DNA of 34,047 nt from the NCBI GenBank assembly GCA_006226595.1, contig SBGP01000015.1:1-34047 (forward strand). The letters run 5' to 3'. Position numbers and translations under genes: made by a program. This DNA is from Deltaproteobacteria bacterium (lineage in GTDB: Bacteria > Myxococcota_A > UBA796 > GCA-2862545). The notes below the pieces were generated by a model. That model saw only the letters and a program-made list of their open reading frames with translations, made no database searches and was not told the origin of the DNA. Positions 23,939 through 32,300 of the stretch are shown here, piece by piece (position 1 is the first letter of the stretch; each line of letters opens with the position of its first letter).

Positions 23939-25039
23939 TTGACGCGCCTTCCCACATCGGTGCTGCTCGCGCTGGGTGCCGTGCCCGCCGCGGTGACCTA
24001 CGCGGCGCTGCTCGGGCTGGGTCTGCACCGTCACGCGTCCCCCCTCGCGATCTCGCTCGTCGCCACCTCGTTGCTCTTCGGTCCTCCCCTGCTCTCCGGC
24101 GCGTTCGCGGCCCGCGAGCGCTCGCGGATCTTCGCGGGCGTGCTCATCGGCTGGTCGCTGTGCGTGCTGCTCGCGCTGCCGGTGTACTTCCCCGGAGAGC
24201 GCCAGCAGGCGGTTGCTTCGGGGCTCGCGCTGGTCGCACCCGAGGCCGCAGGCCGGTGGATCGCCGAGGGCCTGCCCGAGGAACCGGTCGTCAGCCGTCC
24301 CGAGATCCCCGTGGCCGAGACCGTGCTCGCCGAGGCCCCCACCCCGAGCACCACCGCGCTCGAGGAGCACGAGATCGCCTTGCCCGTGGAGGGTGAGGGT
24401 CGCCGCCTCTCGGTGCCCGTGGTGTTCGAGCACGGCGGGCGGACCGTCGAGGTGTGGATGATGCTCGACACCGGCGCCACCTACACGACCCTGCCGGTCG
24501 AGGTGCTCGAGCTGCTCGGCGCGGCGCCCGGCCCCGGCGATCCGATGATCCGCCTGCACACCGCCAACGGCGAGCGCGAGGCCAGCGTGGCCCTGCTCGA
24601 CGAGGTGTGGCTCGGCAACCTCTCGCTCAAGGGCGTCGCCATTGCCACCTGCGACCTGTGCGAGAGCGGCGAGAACGCTGGATTGCTCGGTCTCAACGTG
24701 ACGGGCGGCTTCAACTGGCAGCTCAACGCCGACACCGCCGAGGTGATCTTCTCGAAGCGCGGCGAGCACAACCGCAAGCTCGACGTGTCGCCCTTCGCGG
24801 ACCTCGCGGCCAGCTTCTCGCGTTTTCCAGGCGGACGGGTCGAGGTCGAGGTCGACCTCGAGAACCTCGCCGATCGCGACATTGCCGAGGCCACCGCCCT
24901 CGTCCAGTGCGGCTCGGCCATGTGGACCGTGAAGCACGAGGGCATCGCCCCCGGCGACTCCGAGACCGCCAAGCGGCGCCTGCCCGTGCACGAGCCCTGC
25001 GACAGCTACCAGATCAGCCTGTTCTCGGCCCGCTGGTAG
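23939..25039 (+). CDS. Membrane-anchored retropepsin-like aspartic protease
   Basis: A 366-residue protein. The N-terminus has three hydrophobic segments (SVLLALGAVPAAVTYAALLGLG; ISLVATSLLFGPPLLSGAF; IFAGVLIGWSLCVLLALPVYF). A Pro/Glu-rich linker (about 100-145) leads to a retropepsin-type domain with the active-site Asp177 in MMLDTGATYTTLP and the second hydrophobic-Gly element GLLGLNV. Such domains work as dimers with one Asp per subunit. The remaining C-terminal region (about 260-366) has cysteines and beta segments and could bind substrate. The TTG at 23939 is favoured because GGAG stands five bases before it; the GTG at 23933 overlaps that site. It overlaps the converging flavoenzyme gene by 26 bases. 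Substrate is unknown. Confidence 0.82.
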   Translation: MTRLPTSVLLALGAVPAAVTYAALLGLGLHRHASPLAISLVATSLLFGPPLLSGAFAARERSRIFAGVLIGWSLCVLLALPVYFPGERQQAVASGLALVAPEAAGRWIAEGLPEEPVVSRPEIPVAETVLAEAPTPSTTALEEHEIALPVEGEGRRLSVPVVFEHGGRTVEVWMMLDTGATYTTLPVEVLELLGAAPGPGDPMIRLHTANGEREASVALLDEVWLGNLSLKGVAIATCDLCESGENAGLLGLNVTGGFNWQLNADTAEVIFSKRGEHNRKLDVSPFADLAASFSRFPGGRVEVEVDLENLADRDIAEATALVQCGSAMWTVKHEGIAPGDSETAKRRLPVHEPCDSYQISLFSARW

Positions 25040-26453
25040 CCCGGAGCGCGAGGGTCGCGACCCGGTGGCCGCCGACGGCGGTCGCGAGCGTGCTCTGGCC
25101 GGGGAACACGCTGTCGCCGACCAGGTACAGCCCCGGGGCCACCGCACCGGGGAACGCGCCGCGCACGTTGGCGAGGCTAGGCACTCGCGGGGGGCCGCCC
25201 ACGAAGCCGCCCGGGCGGCCGACGAAGCGGGCATAGGTCCGCGGCGACGCGGGCAGCGCGTGCACGATGCGCAGCTCGGGCGCGAGAGAGGCCAGGGTGT
25301 GGCGCATCGCCGCCTGCACCGCCGCCACGTCCTCGGGCGTCGCCGGCATCGGAAGGTGGGTCGATGCGGTCATCACCCGCTGTCCGGGTCCCGCGCGCCG
25401 CTCGTCCGCGCCGCTCACGCTCGCGAGCAGGTGGTTGCCCGCGATCAGCGGAGCCTCGGGATCGGCGACGAGCTGCCAGTGGAAGGCCTCCGCGGGCAGC
25501 TCACCCTCGACCACCGCGAACCAGGCGGCCGCACCCCAGCTGCGCTCGACCTCGTCCTGGAGCGGATCCAGCGACGGCAGTGGCGCCTCGGTCAGGTCCC
25601 GCAGCGCCTCGGGGAGCAGGTTGGCGACGACCACGTCGGCGGCGGTCTCTCCGCGGCGGTGGGACACGATCCACCGCTCCCTTTCCCGGCGAAGGCCCTT
25701 GGCGCGATCCGAGAAGGACACCCGACCGCCGAGCTGGCGAATGCCCTCCACCAGGGCGTCCGCGAGGTGACCCATGCCGCCCTTCACGTGGGTGGGCTCG
25801 CGAAACCAGAAGTCGAGCGCCGAGAGCCCGAAGGCCGCATCCGCCTCTGCAGCGGAGGTCTGCACGGTGATCTGCAGGCCGGCGTCGATCGCGAGACGCA
25901 GCGGCGCGAAGCCCTCCACCCCGTGGCGTCGCATCACGGCCTCGACCGTGCGCCCGAAGGCCCCGAGCACGGGCAGGTAGGAGCCAGCGCGCCCCACGTG
26001 ACGCGCGAGCATGCTCGCCGAGAGCGGTGGAAGCAGGCTTGGATCCGCGAACAGCGGCCACAGGGCATCGGCGACGCGACCCTGCGTCGCGAAGAAGGCC
26101 TCGATGCCGGCTGGGGCTCCAGGCATCGACGCGAGCTGGCGTGCGAAGGCATCGCGATCCGAGGGCACGACCAGGGACGAGCCCGGCGTGCGCAGCTCGA
26201 CCGCCGGAGAGAGGACCTCGGCGTCGACCGACAAGCCAAGCCGATCCAGCCACTGCCGGAACAGCTGGCCCTCGCCCAGGCCGGCCGCGACCGTGGCCCC
26301 GGCATCGAAGGTCGCCCCGTCCCGGGTGAAGCTGCCCGCGCAGCCGCCCGGGTAGTTCAGCCGCTCGAGCACGAGCACGTCGGCGCCCGCCTCGGCCAGC
26401 GTCAGCGCCGCGCCGAGACCTCCGAAGCCCGTACCGATGACAACCGCGTCCAG
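25014..26453 (-). CDS. FAD-dependent oxidoreductase, phytoene desaturase/CrtI-like
   Basis: A predicted 479-residue flavoprotein. The dinucleotide motif VVIGTGFGGLGAALTLAEAG is followed by VLVLERLNYPGGCAGSF, as in phytoene desaturase, carotenoid isomerase and retinol-saturase-like enzymes. The C-terminal FAD signature is LYLVGDSVFPGQSTLATAVGG. A carotenoid or other polyisoprenoid substrate is likely but not proven; no crtB or crtE gene is present here. No ATG, GTG or TTG exists just before the family N-terminus. A CTG at 26453 with GAGG five bases before it and a seven-base gap after the upstream stop is the best start; the ATG at 26507 inside the upstream gene is the alternative. It overlaps the converging protease gene at its 3' end. 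Confidence 0.83.
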   Translation of the reverse strand: MDAVVIGTGFGGLGAALTLAEAGADVLVLERLNYPGGCAGSFTRDGATFDAGATVAAGLGEGQLFRQWLDRLGLSVDAEVLSPAVELRTPGSSLVVPSDRDAFARQLASMPGAPAGIEAFFATQGRVADALWPLFADPSLLPPLSASMLARHVGRAGSYLPVLGAFGRTVEAVMRRHGVEGFAPLRLAIDAGLQITVQTSAAEADAAFGLSALDFWFREPTHVKGGMGHLADALVEGIRQLGGRVSFSDRAKGLRRERERWIVSHRRGETAADVVVANLLPEALRDLTEAPLPSLDPLQDEVERSWGAAAWFAVVEGELPAEAFHWQLVADPEAPLIAGNHLLASVSGADERRAGPGQRVMTASTHLPMPATPEDVAAVQAAMRHTLASLAPELRIVHALPASPRTYARFVGRPGGFVGGPPRVPSLANVRGAFPGAVAPGLYLVGDSVFPGQSTLATAVGGHRVATLALRATSGPRTG

Positions 26454-26460
26454 AAGCGCC

Positions 26461-27099
26461 TCAGCGAACGATGGCCATGTGGAAGTCCCCGGTGCCGAGC
26501 GCGCCATAGAGTCGCGTCCACAGCAGCAGCCAGGCTTCCATGCCACGGGCGTTGGTGATGTCGCCGAGGTCGACGATGTCGGTCCACCCGAACCACTCGC
26601 CGAGCCACCCGGCGACCCGAGCCTTGGCCTCGGCGTCGTTGCCGCAGATCGGCAGGCTCTTCGGGCCCGCGATGCGGTCGGGGTCGACCATGAGCGCGTT
26701 GGCGACCGTGTTCAGCGCCTTGACCACGCGAAGCTCGGGGTGGGTCCGCTGGATGCGCTCGCCCAGCGAGTCGTCGTTGCACACCGACAGCGTCGGCGGA
26801 AAGCCGTTCGAGAAGTCGAGGGGGTTGGCGACGTCGACGAGGATCTTGCCGGCGAGCGCGTCCCGGCCCGCGAGCTCGAGGGCGGTGAGGCTGTGCAGGC
26901 CCGAGGTGCAGTTGAGCAGGAGCTCCGAGCGGCCGGCGACCTCGGCGAAGGTGTCGGTTCCCCCGCCGTCCACGGCCCAGGCCGTCGCCTTGGGATGGTC
27001 GGGCGCGCGGCTGCCGAGCCACACGTCGTGTCCCTTTGCGCGCAGCGCCGTGCCGAGCGTGCGCGCGACGTCCCCGGTGCCGAGAATGCCGATGTGCAT
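26461..27099 (-). CDS. F420-dependent NADP reductase-like NAD(P)-binding protein
   Basis: A 212-residue protein of the NADP oxidoreductase/coenzyme F420-dependent type. It starts with MHIGILGTGDVARTLGTAL (nucleotide-binding GxGxxA), and LGSRAPDH after strand 2 is consistent with NADP binding. The conserved ALNTVANALMVDP and LPICGNDAEAK segments and the C-terminal MEAWLLLWTRLYGALGTGDFH fit the family. Whether F420 or only NADP is used cannot be decided. Length is normal. GGAGGG lies four bases before the ATG, and the frame upstream of 27099 is not coding. The CrtI-like gene begins seven bases after its stop, so they form an operon. It is divergent from mltG. Confidence 0.88.
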   Translation of the reverse strand: MHIGILGTGDVARTLGTALRAKGHDVWLGSRAPDHPKATAWAVDGGGTDTFAEVAGRSELLLNCTSGLHSLTALELAGRDALAGKILVDVANPLDFSNGFPPTLSVCNDDSLGERIQRTHPELRVVKALNTVANALMVDPDRIAGPKSLPICGNDAEAKARVAGWLGEWFGWTDIVDLGDITNARGMEAWLLLWTRLYGALGTGDFHMAIVR

Positions 27100-27184
27100 G
27101 TGCCCTCCGATGCAAAGAGCATATGCGTGCGCTTCCCGCAGAGCCCGATTTTGGCTAGGTTCCCCACGATTCCACGGAGAATGC

Positions 27185-28135
27185 GTGCTCCTCTTCCTCG
27201 CCCTCGCTGGCTGCGTCGACCCGGACGCCCCCCTCTCGTCCGACAGCACCGCGGTCGTGTTCGAGGTTCCTCCTGGCTCCGCGGCCTCCACCCTCGGCGA
27301 CGACCTCGAAGGGGCGGGCCTCGCGGTCTCCGAGTTCCAGTGGAAGATGTTCCTCCGCGGCACCGACGGCAGCTGCCTGAAGGCCGGCAAGTTCGAGCTG
27401 CGCAAGGACATGAGCCTCACCGAGGTCATGACGACCCTGTGCGGGCCGCCGATCCCGGACGACGTGCCGTTCACCGTGGTCGAAGGCTGGCGCATCCGCG
27501 ACATCGACGCCGCCCTCGCCGAGAAGGGGTGGATCGAGGCCGGCGAGTACGCGGCGCTCGCGCTGGACAAGGCGGTCGACGCGCCCTTCGAGGTCACCTC
27601 GCCGACCTACGAGGGCTACCTGTGGCCCGAGACCTACATGGTCCGCCCGCCGCCGGCCTTCGAGCCCGAGGACCTGATCGCGCGCCAGCTCGCGACGTTC
27701 AAGGAGCGCTTCCTCGACAGCCACGAGCTCGGCGGTAAGCCGCTGCACGACGTCGTGGTCATGGCCTCGATGCTCGAGCGCGAAGAGCCCAAGCCGACCC
27801 AGCGCCCCATCGTCGCCGGCATCCTCTGGAAGCGCATCGACAACGGCTGGCAGCTCGGCGTGGACGCCACCAGCCGCTACGAGCTCGAGAACTGGAACGA
27901 CCGCAGCGCGTTCCTCAAGAAGCTCCGCGACCCTGAAGACGCGTACAATACGCGTGTGCACAAGGGGCTTCCCCCGACGGCCATTGGCAACCCGACGCTG
28001 GCGTCGCTCGAGGCCGCCCTCGAGCCCAAGGAGAGCCCCTACTGGTTCTACCTGCACGACGGCAGCGGCACGTTCCACGGCGGAAAGGACGCAACCGAGC
28101 ACGAGGCCAACCGGAAGAAGTACAACGTCTACTGA
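27185..28135 (+). CDS. mltG: Endolytic peptidoglycan transglycosylase MltG, lipoprotein form
   Basis: A 316-residue YceG/MltG protein that cuts nascent peptidoglycan strands. Family features are the N-terminal LysM-like part (VVFEVPPGSAASTLGDDL, then VVEGWRIRDIDAALA), YEGYLWPETY, the catalytic Glu198 in ASMLEREEPKPTQRP, GVDATSRYE and the C-terminal YNTRVHKGLPPTAIGNP. Instead of the usual transmembrane anchor there is a very short hydrophobic start ending in LAGC (Cys10), so it is predicted to be a lipoprotein. The GTG at 27185 has GGAGA upstream. An in-frame ATG at 27110 would give an Arg-rich N-region but lacks a ribosome site. Downstream is a REC-domain gene. It is divergent from the F420-reductase-like gene. 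Confidence 0.93.
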   Translation: MLLFLALAGCVDPDAPLSSDSTAVVFEVPPGSAASTLGDDLEGAGLAVSEFQWKMFLRGTDGSCLKAGKFELRKDMSLTEVMTTLCGPPIPDDVPFTVVEGWRIRDIDAALAEKGWIEAGEYAALALDKAVDAPFEVTSPTYEGYLWPETYMVRPPPAFEPEDLIARQLATFKERFLDSHELGGKPLHDVVVMASMLEREEPKPTQRPIVAGILWKRIDNGWQLGVDATSRYELENWNDRSAFLKKLRDPEDAYNTRVHKGLPPTAIGNPTLASLEAALEPKESPYWFYLHDGSGTFHGGKDATEHEANRKKYNVY

Positions 28136-28145
28136 TCCGCGAACC

Positions 28146-28472
28146 ATCCTCGTCGTCGACGACGACCCCAGCGTGCGGGCGCTGCACTGCCGCGCGCTGG
28201 AGGCGCTCGGCTACCGCGCCATCGCGGCCTCGACCGGCGCGCAAGCGCTCGAAGCCGCATCGCGCGCCGACCTGGTACTCACCGACCTGAACCTGCCAGA
28301 CATGTGGGGCGAGGATCTGGCGCGGGCGCTGCGAGAAGCAGGCATCACGGCTCCCATCCTCGGCGTCACCGGCGAGTCCGCGGAGGCCAGGGACCCCCTC
28401 GATCACGTCGAGCAGAAGCCCATGCGCGTGGCGCGACTGCGACAACTGCTCGCCGAGTTCCTCCCGGCTTGA
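28146..28472 (+). CDS. Single-domain response regulator (REC only), start codon unclear
   Basis: A complete receiver domain of about 108 residues. The acidic pocket is VVDDD (residues 3-7), the phosphoacceptor is Asp47 (LTDLNLP), the switch Thr is Thr75 (GVTGES) and the conserved Lys is Lys91 (EQKP). It has no output domain, so it resembles CheY-like or phosphorelay intermediates. The domain begins right after the mltG stop in the +1 frame. No ATG, GTG or TTG lies between the mltG stop and the domain start; the first in-frame codon that could serve is ATC at 28146. The next GTG at 28173 would delete the acidic pocket, and the GTG at 27954 lies deep inside mltG. A rare start codon, a coupled frameshift or a sequence error are all possible. 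Confidence 0.65.
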   Translation: MLVVDDDPSVRALHCRALEALGYRAIAASTGAQALEAASRADLVLTDLNLPDMWGEDLARALREAGITAPILGVTGESAEARDPLDHVEQKPMRVARLRQLLAEFLPA

Positions 28473-28499
28473 TCTGCGGCGCGCAGCCCGCTGTATACT
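28469..28499 (+). promoter_or_regulatory. Candidate sigma70-type promoter for the downstream lipoprotein
   Basis: TTGATC (28469-28474) and TATACT (28494-28499) resemble -35 and -10 elements with a 19-base spacer, slightly long. The -10 box lies 21 bases before the GTG start of the lipoprotein gene and is AT-rich against a GC-rich background. This is a visual match only. Confidence 0.35.
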
Positions 28500-28520
28500 T
28501 TTCGCCGGAGGAAAAGACCC

Positions 28521-29333
28521 GTGCATCTCCTCGCACCGCGAGCTGCCGCCCTTACGCTGATGCTCGCGCTGACGCTGACCGCGTGCGGAAAGAAGACGGC
28601 CCCGAGCGCTGGTGGCGACACCAGTGGCGGCGACACGACCGCGGCCGCACCCGCGCCTTCCGGACCCATCGACATCGTCTTCGACGACGAGGAGTGGGAC
28701 GAAGAAGAGACGATGAGCTTCCTCGAGGAGACCGCCGACTGCGGCGACCTCTACGCCCTCGAGCCCGCGGCCATGCTCGGAAACCTCTCCGACCCGCAGA
28801 TCTCCTGCCTCGAGGACAAGCTCAACGTCACCGAGGTCCAGACGTTCAAGAAGCGCCTGTCGCTGCTGCTCATCGTCGACGCCTGGTCGTCCGGCGAGTC
28901 GGAGCGCATGCGGTGGGAAGCGCTCGTTCGCCGTCACCTCGACGAGTTCGACCGCTCGGACCCGGACCTCTGCTACAAGTTCGCGCGCCACCTGCAGAAG
29001 CGCGGCTCGGAGTATGGCGAAGAGGCAGTGCGCTGGGCGGACGTCGCGCTCGAGAACAAGACGCGGTGGACCGGCGATACCTACGTGAGCCGCGTGTACA
29101 GCCTGCTCAAGCTCAAGTCGATGGCCGCCGCGGACGTGTGGCAGGCCAGCGAGGCCGCGTTCTCGGCGAACCCCGGCGACGAGTCGCTGCGCGAGGCACG
29201 CGACACCCGCCGCAACGAGGCGAAGACGATGGCGCGCGAGTGGCTCGACTACGCCCGCGAGTCCGGCAAGGACCCGACCCGCGCCTTCGACCTGTGCGTG
29301 AGCGCCGCCGGTACCGAGCAGTACTGCAGCTGA
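28521..29333 (+). CDS. Lipoprotein of unknown function
   Basis: A 270-residue predicted lipoprotein. The signal peptide ends in the lipobox LTAC with Cys22, followed by a Gly/Ser/Thr/Ala linker (about 25-47) and an acidic segment (DDEEWDEEETMSFLEE). The remainder is helical and probably TPR-like, with TFKKRLSLLLIVDAWSSGESERMRWEAL and RWADVALENKTRWTGDTYVSRVYSLLKLK. Cysteines recur at DCGDLYA, ISCLED, DLCYKF, LCVSAA and the C-terminal YCS, so disulfides in the periplasm are possible. The GTG at 28521 has GGAGG upstream. It is not assigned to any family I know. A GC hairpin follows its stop. Confidence 0.75.
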   Translation: MHLLAPRAAALTLMLALTLTACGKKTAPSAGGDTSGGDTTAAAPAPSGPIDIVFDDEEWDEEETMSFLEETADCGDLYALEPAAMLGNLSDPQISCLEDKLNVTEVQTFKKRLSLLLIVDAWSSGESERMRWEALVRRHLDEFDRSDPDLCYKFARHLQKRGSEYGEEAVRWADVALENKTRWTGDTYVSRVYSLLKLKSMAAADVWQASEAAFSANPGDESLREARDTRRNEAKTMAREWLDYARESGKDPTRAFDLCVSAAGTEQYCS

Positions 29334-29344
29334 TGCGTCCACGG

Positions 29345-29360
29345 CGCGGCCCCGGCCGCG
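29345..29360 (+). terminator. GC-rich hairpin after the lipoprotein gene
   Basis: CGCGGC-CCCG-GCCGCG forms a 6-bp stem with a 4-base loop twelve bases after the lipoprotein stop and 31 bases before the SNF2 gene start. Without a T-run it is a weak candidate for an intrinsic terminator. Confidence 0.35.
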
Positions 29361-29390
29361 TCGCGCGATAGGTTCTGGCTCGGAGAAGCG

Positions 29391-32300
29391 TTGCCCCGTC
29401 CGCTGCCAGTCCCAGACCCGCACATCAAGGCGCACGTCGGCGGTCAGCCGTTCTACAACCGCGGCTGGGCCTACCACCGCGACCGTCGCGTCGCGCGGCG
29501 GCAGTGGTCCGAGGACCGGGTGTACGCGGCGGTCCAGGGCAACCAGGCCTTTCCGTACCAGGTCGAGGCCCGCATCGGGCGCGGCCAGAAGGTGGTGTCG
29601 TCGACGTGCACCTGCGCGATGGGCGGCGCGTGCAAGCACGTCGCGGCGCTGCTCATCGCCTTCGAGCAGGAACCCACGACCTTCCGCGAGATCGAGGCGG
29701 CCCCGCCGCGAGCGCCCGTGCGCGACTGGCAGACCTGGGCCGAGGAGCGCGGGGTCGCGGACCTGCTCGACGAGCCTGTGACCCGGGTGTTCTCGTCGTG
29801 GCGCATGTACGAGCTGCCGCTGAACCGCCAGGACACGGTGCGCGGCGCCCTCACCGGCGAGCCTCGGGGCAGCCGCCACCAGCAGGCCGCGCTGTCCCGC
29901 GCACTCGACGACCTCGTCGACTGGCTCGAGGACGAGGCCCAGCACCGACGCGACGTGCGGCACTACAACGCCGAGGCCGAGAGCTGGCGGGAGGTCCCGC
30001 CGCGCGAGACCTGGCTCGTTCCCCTGTACAGCTGGCTTCGGGCGAGCGTCGCCGAAGCCCCGCCCCACCTCGGCCTCGCCGGACCCGAGCTCGAGTCCCA
30101 GCTGCACCTTCACGAGGACCCGCCCGCGATCGCCGTGCCCACCGAAGAGGGCCAGGCCTCCTCGCCGATCCCGCTCCAGCCGCGACCCGACGAGGCACCC
30201 GCGGAACCGGCCGCCGCCCGGGCGGTACTCGACGTGCTCACGCACCCGGACTTCGCTGGGGGGCGGGTTCGCGAGTGGATGTCCGCGATGGCGCGCATTC
30301 CCACGTGGGAGCGGGCGCTCATGGCGCTCGACCAGCTGGTCGATGCCAACGGCCTGCCCGAGGACCCGGAGGGCCGCGAACCCGGCTGGCGCATCGAGCA
30401 CAAGGGCACGTACAAGCTCACGCCGGTGTGGGTGCGGCCGTTCAAGACCAAGGGCGGGCTGCGAGCCTGGCCGATGGGCTACGAGAGCGAGCGCCTCACC
30501 GATCCTCGCGACCGGGAGGCCCTCGACATCCTCAAGGGCTACGGCCATGCGAAGAATGCCCAGGTGCTGTGGGCGCTCGCCGCGCTGATCGGCCATCCGC
30601 GGGTGATCTGGGAGCGGGGCGAGCACATGGCCGTGCGCAAGGGCGAGGTCGGCCTCGAGTGGCGCCCCGCGGCGGGTGGGGTGGAGCTGGTACCGACCGT
30701 CGACGACGACGAGGTCGACGCCGCCGAGCTCCTCCGCGCCCTGGACCAGGCATCCGGCGAACGCCTGCTGTGGGTGGACGTGCGCCGCTCGCGGCTGGTG
30801 CTGTGCCCCTGCCCCCCGGGCACCGAGAGGCTGCTGCGCAAGGTGCTCGGTCGCAGCCGGCGCTTCCCGCCGGAGGCCGTCGAGCCGATGCTCCGCCGGT
30901 TCGAGTCCCTGTCGACCCTCGCGCCAATGCGGCTGCGCGGCGAGCTGCGCGGCGAGGCCGTGGCCCCCGACCTGCGACCGCTCGTGCGACTGGCGCCCGC
31001 ACCCGACGGCAGCCTCGAGCTGGTCGTGCGCTCGCGGGTGCTGCCGGGCTCGATCCCCCAGCCTCCTGGACGTGGCCCCGACGAGGTCGCCGCCGTGCGC
31101 GACGGGGTGCGCGTGTTCGCGGAGCGTCAGCTGGACGACGAGCCCGAAGCCTTCCGCCATGCACTCGCGGCGCTGGACCTCCCCGATCAAGAGGGCTTCA
31201 CCTGGACCCTCGACGATCCCGAGCAGGCACTGCCCGTGGTCCTCGCGCTTCGCGAGCACCAGGCGCGCTTCCAGGTCGAGTGGTCTCGCCCGCCCCCGCG
31301 CATCTCGCGACGGGCCACGGCGGGCGACCTCAAGGTGAAGGGCGACGAGCGCCGCGACTGGTTCGGAGTCGAAGGCGGGCTCGACGTCGACGGGGACGCA
31401 CTGCCGCTTGCCGACCTGTTGCTCGCGATCCGCTCGAAGAAGCACTTCGTGCGCCTCGACGACGGCGGGTTCATCCACCTGTCGCGTCGGCTGGTCGCGC
31501 AGCTCAAGGACACCGCCGAGTCCGCGTGGGACACCCGAGACGGCGTGGCCATCGCCCCGCTGGCCGCCGAGACCCTGGCCGAGGTCGAGGCCGATGGCGC
31601 CGAGATCGCGCTGCCCGACTCCTTCCGAGTACGGGCCGAGCGGCTGCGTGAGGCTGCGGACCTCGACATCCCCGTCCCCGAGGGGCTGAACGCGACCTTG
31701 CGGCCGTATCAGGTCGATGGACTGCGGTTCCTGGCGCGCCTCGCCCACTGGGCACCCGGCGCGGTGCTCGCCGACGACATGGGCCTCGGGAAGACACTGC
31801 AGACCCTGGCGCTGCTGCTGCGACGGCGTGAGCGCGGTCCGGCGCTGGTCGTGGCACCCGCCTCGGTGAATACGAACTGGATGCGCGAGGCCGCGCGCTT
31901 CGCACCGGGGCTCGATGTGCGACCGTACCGGGGCAGTCGCCGGCTGAAGCTGCTCGATGCCCTCGGCCCGAACCAGGTGCTCGTCACCAGCTGGGACCTG
32001 ATGACCCGCGACGCGAAGGCGCTGTCCAAGCACCGCTTCGCGACCGTGGTGCTCGACGAGGCCCAGGCGATCAAGAACCCGGGCACCCGCCGGGCACGCG
32101 CCTCGGTGGCCCTCGACGGGGAGTTCGTCGTCGCCCTCACCGGAACGCCGGTCGAGAACCGCGTCGGCGAGGTGTGGAGTCTGTTTCGGACCGTGGTTCC
32201 CGGGCTTCTCGGCCCGGCCTTCGCGTTCAAGGAACGCTTCGTGTCGCCGATCGAGAAGAGCGGCAGCAGCACCGCCCAGGCGGCGCTGTCCCGGCTGATC

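Follow-up and report, generated by a model that had tools for sequence, protein, structure and literature searches.

The question raised by this locus is how a receiver (REC) domain gene can be translated when no conventional start codon stands in front of it. The window, the whole stretch of DNA analysed here (34,047 nucleotides), carries such a gene directly behind mltG. The features concerned were as follows.

27185..28135, + strand: mltG, YceG-like endolytic transglycosylase (Pfam YceG 3.3e-55 when read from 27182; NCBIfam TIGR00247 MltG above cut-off)
28125..28127, + strand: candidate near-cognate ACG within the end of mltG, 7 codons before the domain
28125..28472, + strand: REC-domain gene, a single-domain response regulator (Pfam Response_reg), with the ACG candidate as its 5' limit
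28146..28148, + strand: candidate near-cognate ATC, ten bases past the mltG stop, at the first Pfam-match position
28158..28166, + strand: acidic pocket Asp-Asp-Asp
28173..28175, + strand: GTG, the first conventional in-frame codon after the mltG stop in the in-frame codon listing
28284..28286, + strand: phospho-acceptor Asp
28368..28370, + strand: Thr of the REC
28368..28418, + strand: short β4-β5 link, Thr to Lys (16 residues against the usual 22)
28416..28418, + strand: Lys of the REC
28475..28495, + strand: weak terminator-like hairpin directly 3' of the REC stop
28521..29333, + strand: downstream lipoprotein-like gene with a GTG start, the end of the syntenic block

A receiver gene without a conventional start

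The REC frame was +1 relative to mltG, contained no internal stop, ended with the TGA at 28470-28472 and read ...STDPRTILVVDDDPSVRALH.... The Pfam Response_reg profile (PF00072) matched it with an E-value of 1.6e-15 and 57.7 bits (curated cut-off 30.2). The alignment covered profile positions 1-82 of 111, and the unmatched last quarter fits the short β4-β5 link. The acidic pocket, the Asp (invariant across a 22-row alignment), the Thr and the Lys were all present. An earlier note on this DNA had claimed an intact gene with all phosphorylation residues and without ATG, GTG or TTG before the acidic pocket outside mltG, and both claims held. Between the mltG stop (TGA 28133-28135) and the acidic pocket, the listing of in-frame codons contained no ATG, GTG or TTG. 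From 27954 to 28180 the only conventional codons in the REC frame were GTG 27954 and TTG 27984, both within mltG, and GTG 28173, past the acidic pocket.

To place this gene among the receivers of its own genome, the genome was surveyed with the Pfam REC profile, which gave 94 matches. Of these, 60 had no upstream coding signal, defined by our own, loose threshold as a hexamer coding score below 3 or an open frame of 40 codons or fewer. A conventional codon was found 0-20 codons before the domain in 55 of the 60 (at 3-7 codons in 31), although so loose a criterion may have let in, among the 55, internal RECs that happen to have a conventional codon there. Of the other five, three lay within long open frames (1107, 853 and 669 aa) and one was a remnant. 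The fifth was the window gene, the sole start-less case of the 60 to which neither description applies. The remnant (L153, G000:C81:127920-128132, - strand) was a half REC covering profile positions 39-109, had no conventional start in its upstream open frame and is probably left over from a larger signalling gene. A broader survey covered 340 coding segments and found 15 in which -60..+45 held no start, and many of these had one slightly further off. It was not discriminating, and it scored the window REC as having a start on account of GTG 28173.

The locus in relatives

All 21 family genomes examined carried mltG. Among the 22 mltG loci, a REC-like β1 motif within 900 bases behind the gene was found only in the window and in G001, a genome of the same genus; the search at L049 covered 583 bases, and the genus was sampled by two genomes, the window's own and G001. 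A scan of contigs at four loci by eye, with L056 and L057 also searched by motif, found a REC behind mltG in none of the three besides G001. Gene order in G001 was the same as in the window: mltG, six bases, the ATG of the REC, and then the same lipoprotein-like gene. The G001 REC lay in the frame of mltG itself (L002 1495-1827), whereas the window REC lay in the +1 frame. The distance from the mltG stop to the acidic pocket was 22 bases in the window and 24 in G001; the two must differ by one or more insertions or deletions. In addition to its upstream ATG, the G001 REC contained an in-frame GTG corresponding to GTG 28173. At the triplet aligned with window ACG 28125, the end of G001 mltG had an ATG; its frame closes nine codons on, and therefore it is not the start of the REC there.

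The comparison with orthologues that had been proposed as a check thus yielded an ATG six bases past the mltG stop in the one relative with the gene. The state of the window is accordingly a lineage-specific loss or an error, and a conserved unusual start was rejected. From this single relative the ATG state is tentatively taken to be the older one. Conserved non-canonical starts are exemplified by sigR and infC, and the conservation among relatives seen in such cases was absent here. As far as the available text of PMC5472188 describes it, Streptomyces sigR starts with GTC, which IF3 represses. It resembles the window REC in being a regulatory gene without ATG, GTG or TTG at its true start; it differs in that its ribosome site is strong and highly conserved and GTC is kept in 32 of 34 Streptomyces, whereas the window REC has no clear ribosome site and its sister species has ATG. 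The same text gives ATT in E. coli and ATC in Streptomyces as starts of infC, which encodes IF3. ATC 28146 would be a near-cognate start of this type, but infC, unlike the window REC as far as the evidence goes, regulates its own start (PMC5472188, in the text available).

The REC had also changed faster than its neighbours. Identity between the window and G001 was about 41-42% for the REC, 81% for mltG and 73-74% for the lipoprotein-like gene. The coding score of the REC was 10.7 over about 110 codons, compared with an average of 0.28 per codon in the training genes. Such weak constraint (41% identity against 81% and 74% for the flanks, with a low coding score) fits a loss, although the fast evolution could instead reflect a changed function. 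Weak constraint and the failure to find an efficient start speak against a living gene. In its favour are a Pfam score slightly above that of the relative (57.7 versus 52.8 bits), the retained phosphorylation residues and the absence of internal stops, and to judge from its sequence the intact domain is in itself no sign of silence.

Taken together, a real, lineage-specific loss of the start codon is the reading we favour, with a probability of about 0.57, the REC then being weakly translated from a near-cognate codon or newly silent. The gene would be a genus-restricted single-domain response regulator behind mltG, read by termination-reinitiation that appears coupled to mltG, and mltG and the REC are probably co-transcribed. 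The window lineage would have lost the conventional start that the sister species has, leaving initiation only at a near-cognate, putatively ACG 28125 or ATC 28146. With only near-cognate starts remaining, little of the protein would be produced, or else the gene would be newly silent. If the loss is real, a signalling gene with a still intact body has been caught in the course of losing its start, and the locus allows the protein yield of a coupled near-cognate codon to be tested in a native setting. Such genes could be mis-annotated, either by truncation at GTG 28173 or by extension into mltG.

The main rival, second to a real loss, is an error of assembly or consensus in the draft, with the true gene starting conventionally; we regard it as unlikely, yet as deserving real weight. 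The conventional start in G001, the otherwise intact gene and the draft state of the genome (117 contigs) all agree with such an error. However, nine neighbour genes common to the window and G001 aligned in a single frame without frameshift, which argues mildly against poor local assembly. Internal stops were absent from all 94 REC matches of the genome, although a few partial matches lay outside the frameshift check. An error would also need to hit a start codon, and the distances of 22 and 24 bases from stop to pocket do not correspond to a one-base slip, whereas a substitution is still compatible with them. The single-base error suggested earlier survives in part: a sequence error is a live explanation, but one gained base yields no ATG, GTG or TTG. 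In particular, the base proposed to be gained near 28145 does not provide a remedy, since it gives CTG-ATC, which is still non-conventional. If a base-calling error is the cause, the matter is ordinary.

Candidate starts and ribosome pairing

Pairing with the anti-Shine-Dalgarno sequence was calculated for the starts of all three genes. At best it reached -3.5 kcal/mol for ACG 28125, +0.6 for ATC 28146 and -2.7 for the ATG of the G001 REC, whereas in both species the two flanking genes, mltG and the lipoprotein-like one, gave -6.6 to -10.2 kcal/mol at their starts (in the window, -6.6 for mltG and -9.5 for the lipoprotein-like gene). The interior of mltG served as background, with a mean of -3.05, a standard deviation of 2.42 and the most favourable 5% reaching -7.29 kcal/mol; the value of -6.6 for mltG itself is therefore within background, and the pairing control is soft. 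No Shine-Dalgarno sequence above the mltG-interior background was found for the REC starts of either species. Since the REC pairs at background level while the flanking starts pair well, the REC seems to be coupled to mltG in both species.

Both candidates, ACG 28125 and ATC 28146, were within 11 bases of the mltG stop. According to the available text of PMC10666635, reinitiation in six tested gene pairs depended on the genes overlapping or lying very close together, and the commonest gene overlaps were -4 and -1. ACG 28125 would overlap mltG by 11 bases, which is not among the common overlaps described there. The ATC proposed in the earlier note keeps its place as a candidate start, but without a Shine-Dalgarno sequence (+0.6 kcal/mol); the in-frame ACG, which that note omitted, is added here. 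Near-cognates of ATG make up 9 of the 64 codons, and chance alone should place one in frame in a stretch of about ten codons; the presence of these two codons therefore gives neither of them positive support. Genuine and useful initiation at ACG 28125, by ribosomes coming straight from the end of MltG synthesis, is improbable; the level of the REC would then be tied to MltG synthesis and, as for sigR, to initiation fidelity (IF3).

Translation of the REC from a conventional codon elsewhere appears improbable. It would begin at TTG 27984 or GTG 27954 to give a long form, or at GTG 28173 to give a short form. All three codons are in the REC frame, and upstream of TTG 27984 a pairing of -4.7 kcal/mol was calculated at a spacer of 11. 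The long form, however, would add 54-64 residues read out of frame from conserved mltG, and it was rejected on the coding score of -88.8 over the 60 codons preceding the domain. The short form would cost the REC its β1 strand and the acidic pocket. G001, moreover, has its ATG just past the stop rather than a start elsewhere.

The +1 frameshifting at the mltG stop that had been put forward earlier, which would produce an MltG-REC fusion, has hardly any chance of being correct. The REC does lie +1 to mltG and starts immediately at its stop. But MltG begins with what looks like a lipoprotein signal in both species, so a fused REC would cross the membrane and be separated from histidine kinases; in our judgement the stop context UAC UGA U is not slippery and offers no good +1 re-pairing; and the G001 REC is in the mltG frame with a separate ATG of its own. 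The fusion was rejected on these grounds. The folding of the RNA at the junction of mltG and the REC showed nothing notable (z 0.73), and a role for RNA structure there was likewise rejected. Neither the conserved frame relation nor the stimulating structure of a programmed +1 frameshift was thus found.

The receiver fold and the neighbouring genes

The receiver itself was unusual in the link between β4 and β5. The Thr-Lys distance was 22 in 55 of the 75 RECs in which it could be measured by pattern (of 94 in the genome). The distance of 16 and a non-aromatic residue three before the Lys were common to the RECs of both species. Only one other REC was as short as that of the window, with 15 residues, in a 555-aa open frame (L156, G000:C90:12722-12955, - strand). 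The residue three before the Lys, the position of the aromatic residue on β5, was Val in the window and Ile in the relative. An AlphaFold2 model of the window REC built from a two-row alignment had a pLDDT of 86.0 and a pTM of 0.82 (71.6-86.0 in pLDDT across the five models). Compared with solved structures, its 50 best matches listed had TM scores of 0.75-0.88 and mostly carried the names of receivers or response regulators. Helix α4 was absent from the model, with a local pLDDT of 61 at residues 81-90; given this low confidence, the α4-less assignment comes mainly from the length of the link. The five helices of a (βα)5 fold were accordingly not all seen in the model, a feature that is typical rather than strictly required. 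Judged from sequence and model, the REC is an atypical receiver, and the shortened link seen in both species has some interest of its own.

Receivers without α4 are known (PMC9981736, in the part available). The FATGUY receivers MrrA, SdrG and Sma0114 and the α4-less CckA-Rec are described as phosphorelay intermediates in the available text of PMC5964349 and PMC9981736. From these descriptions, the window REC is like the FATGUY proteins in being a stand-alone REC, and like the FATGUY type and CckA-Rec in having P-x-x-x-x-T-G at β4 and in the absence of α4. Sma0114 also has no aromatic residue on β5, as stated in the available part of PMC9981736, and the window REC combines the two traits, being predicted to be α4-less and having a non-aromatic residue at this position. 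The motif PFXFATG(G/Y) given in the available part of PMC5964349 was not matched, the corresponding segments being PILGVTGE in the window and PIVGVTGA in the relative. By analogy, the window REC may work like a phosphorelay intermediary of the FATGUY or CckA type; membership is not claimed. EpsW of Myxococcus xanthus is, in the available text of PMC4671073, also an orphan single-domain response regulator, but the window REC scored 35.6 bits against the EpsW model, whose cut-off is 200. An engineered E. coli circuit, as far as its available description goes, shares with the window REC a gene body without a normal start, which there still gives a working protein; it is not a native gene, unlike the window REC.

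The genes on both sides of the REC were also compared between the two species. The GTG start of mltG was chosen from the GTG of the relative and from the lipoprotein-like N-terminus VLLFLALAGC. This N-terminus (window 27185-27214) corresponds to VILFLALVGC in G001 (L002 538-567), with a GTG start in both species, and we presume the motif to be a lipoprotein-like signal in both. A gene of the FAD-dependent amine oxidoreductase type (window 25017-26546, - strand) lies inside the block common to both species; the contig of the relative has no match to it, and the flanking matches there nearly abut (38895 and 38908). Two terminator-like hairpins were found in 27000-29500, compared with a mean of 1.0 in shuffles. 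No Pfam family matched the downstream lipoprotein-like gene, which starts with GTG in the window and TTG in the relative. The sequence TATACT..TCGCCGGAG was kept before this gene in both species (window 28494-28511; L002 1894-1910), and its conservation suggests that the gene has a promoter of its own together with a strong ribosome site.
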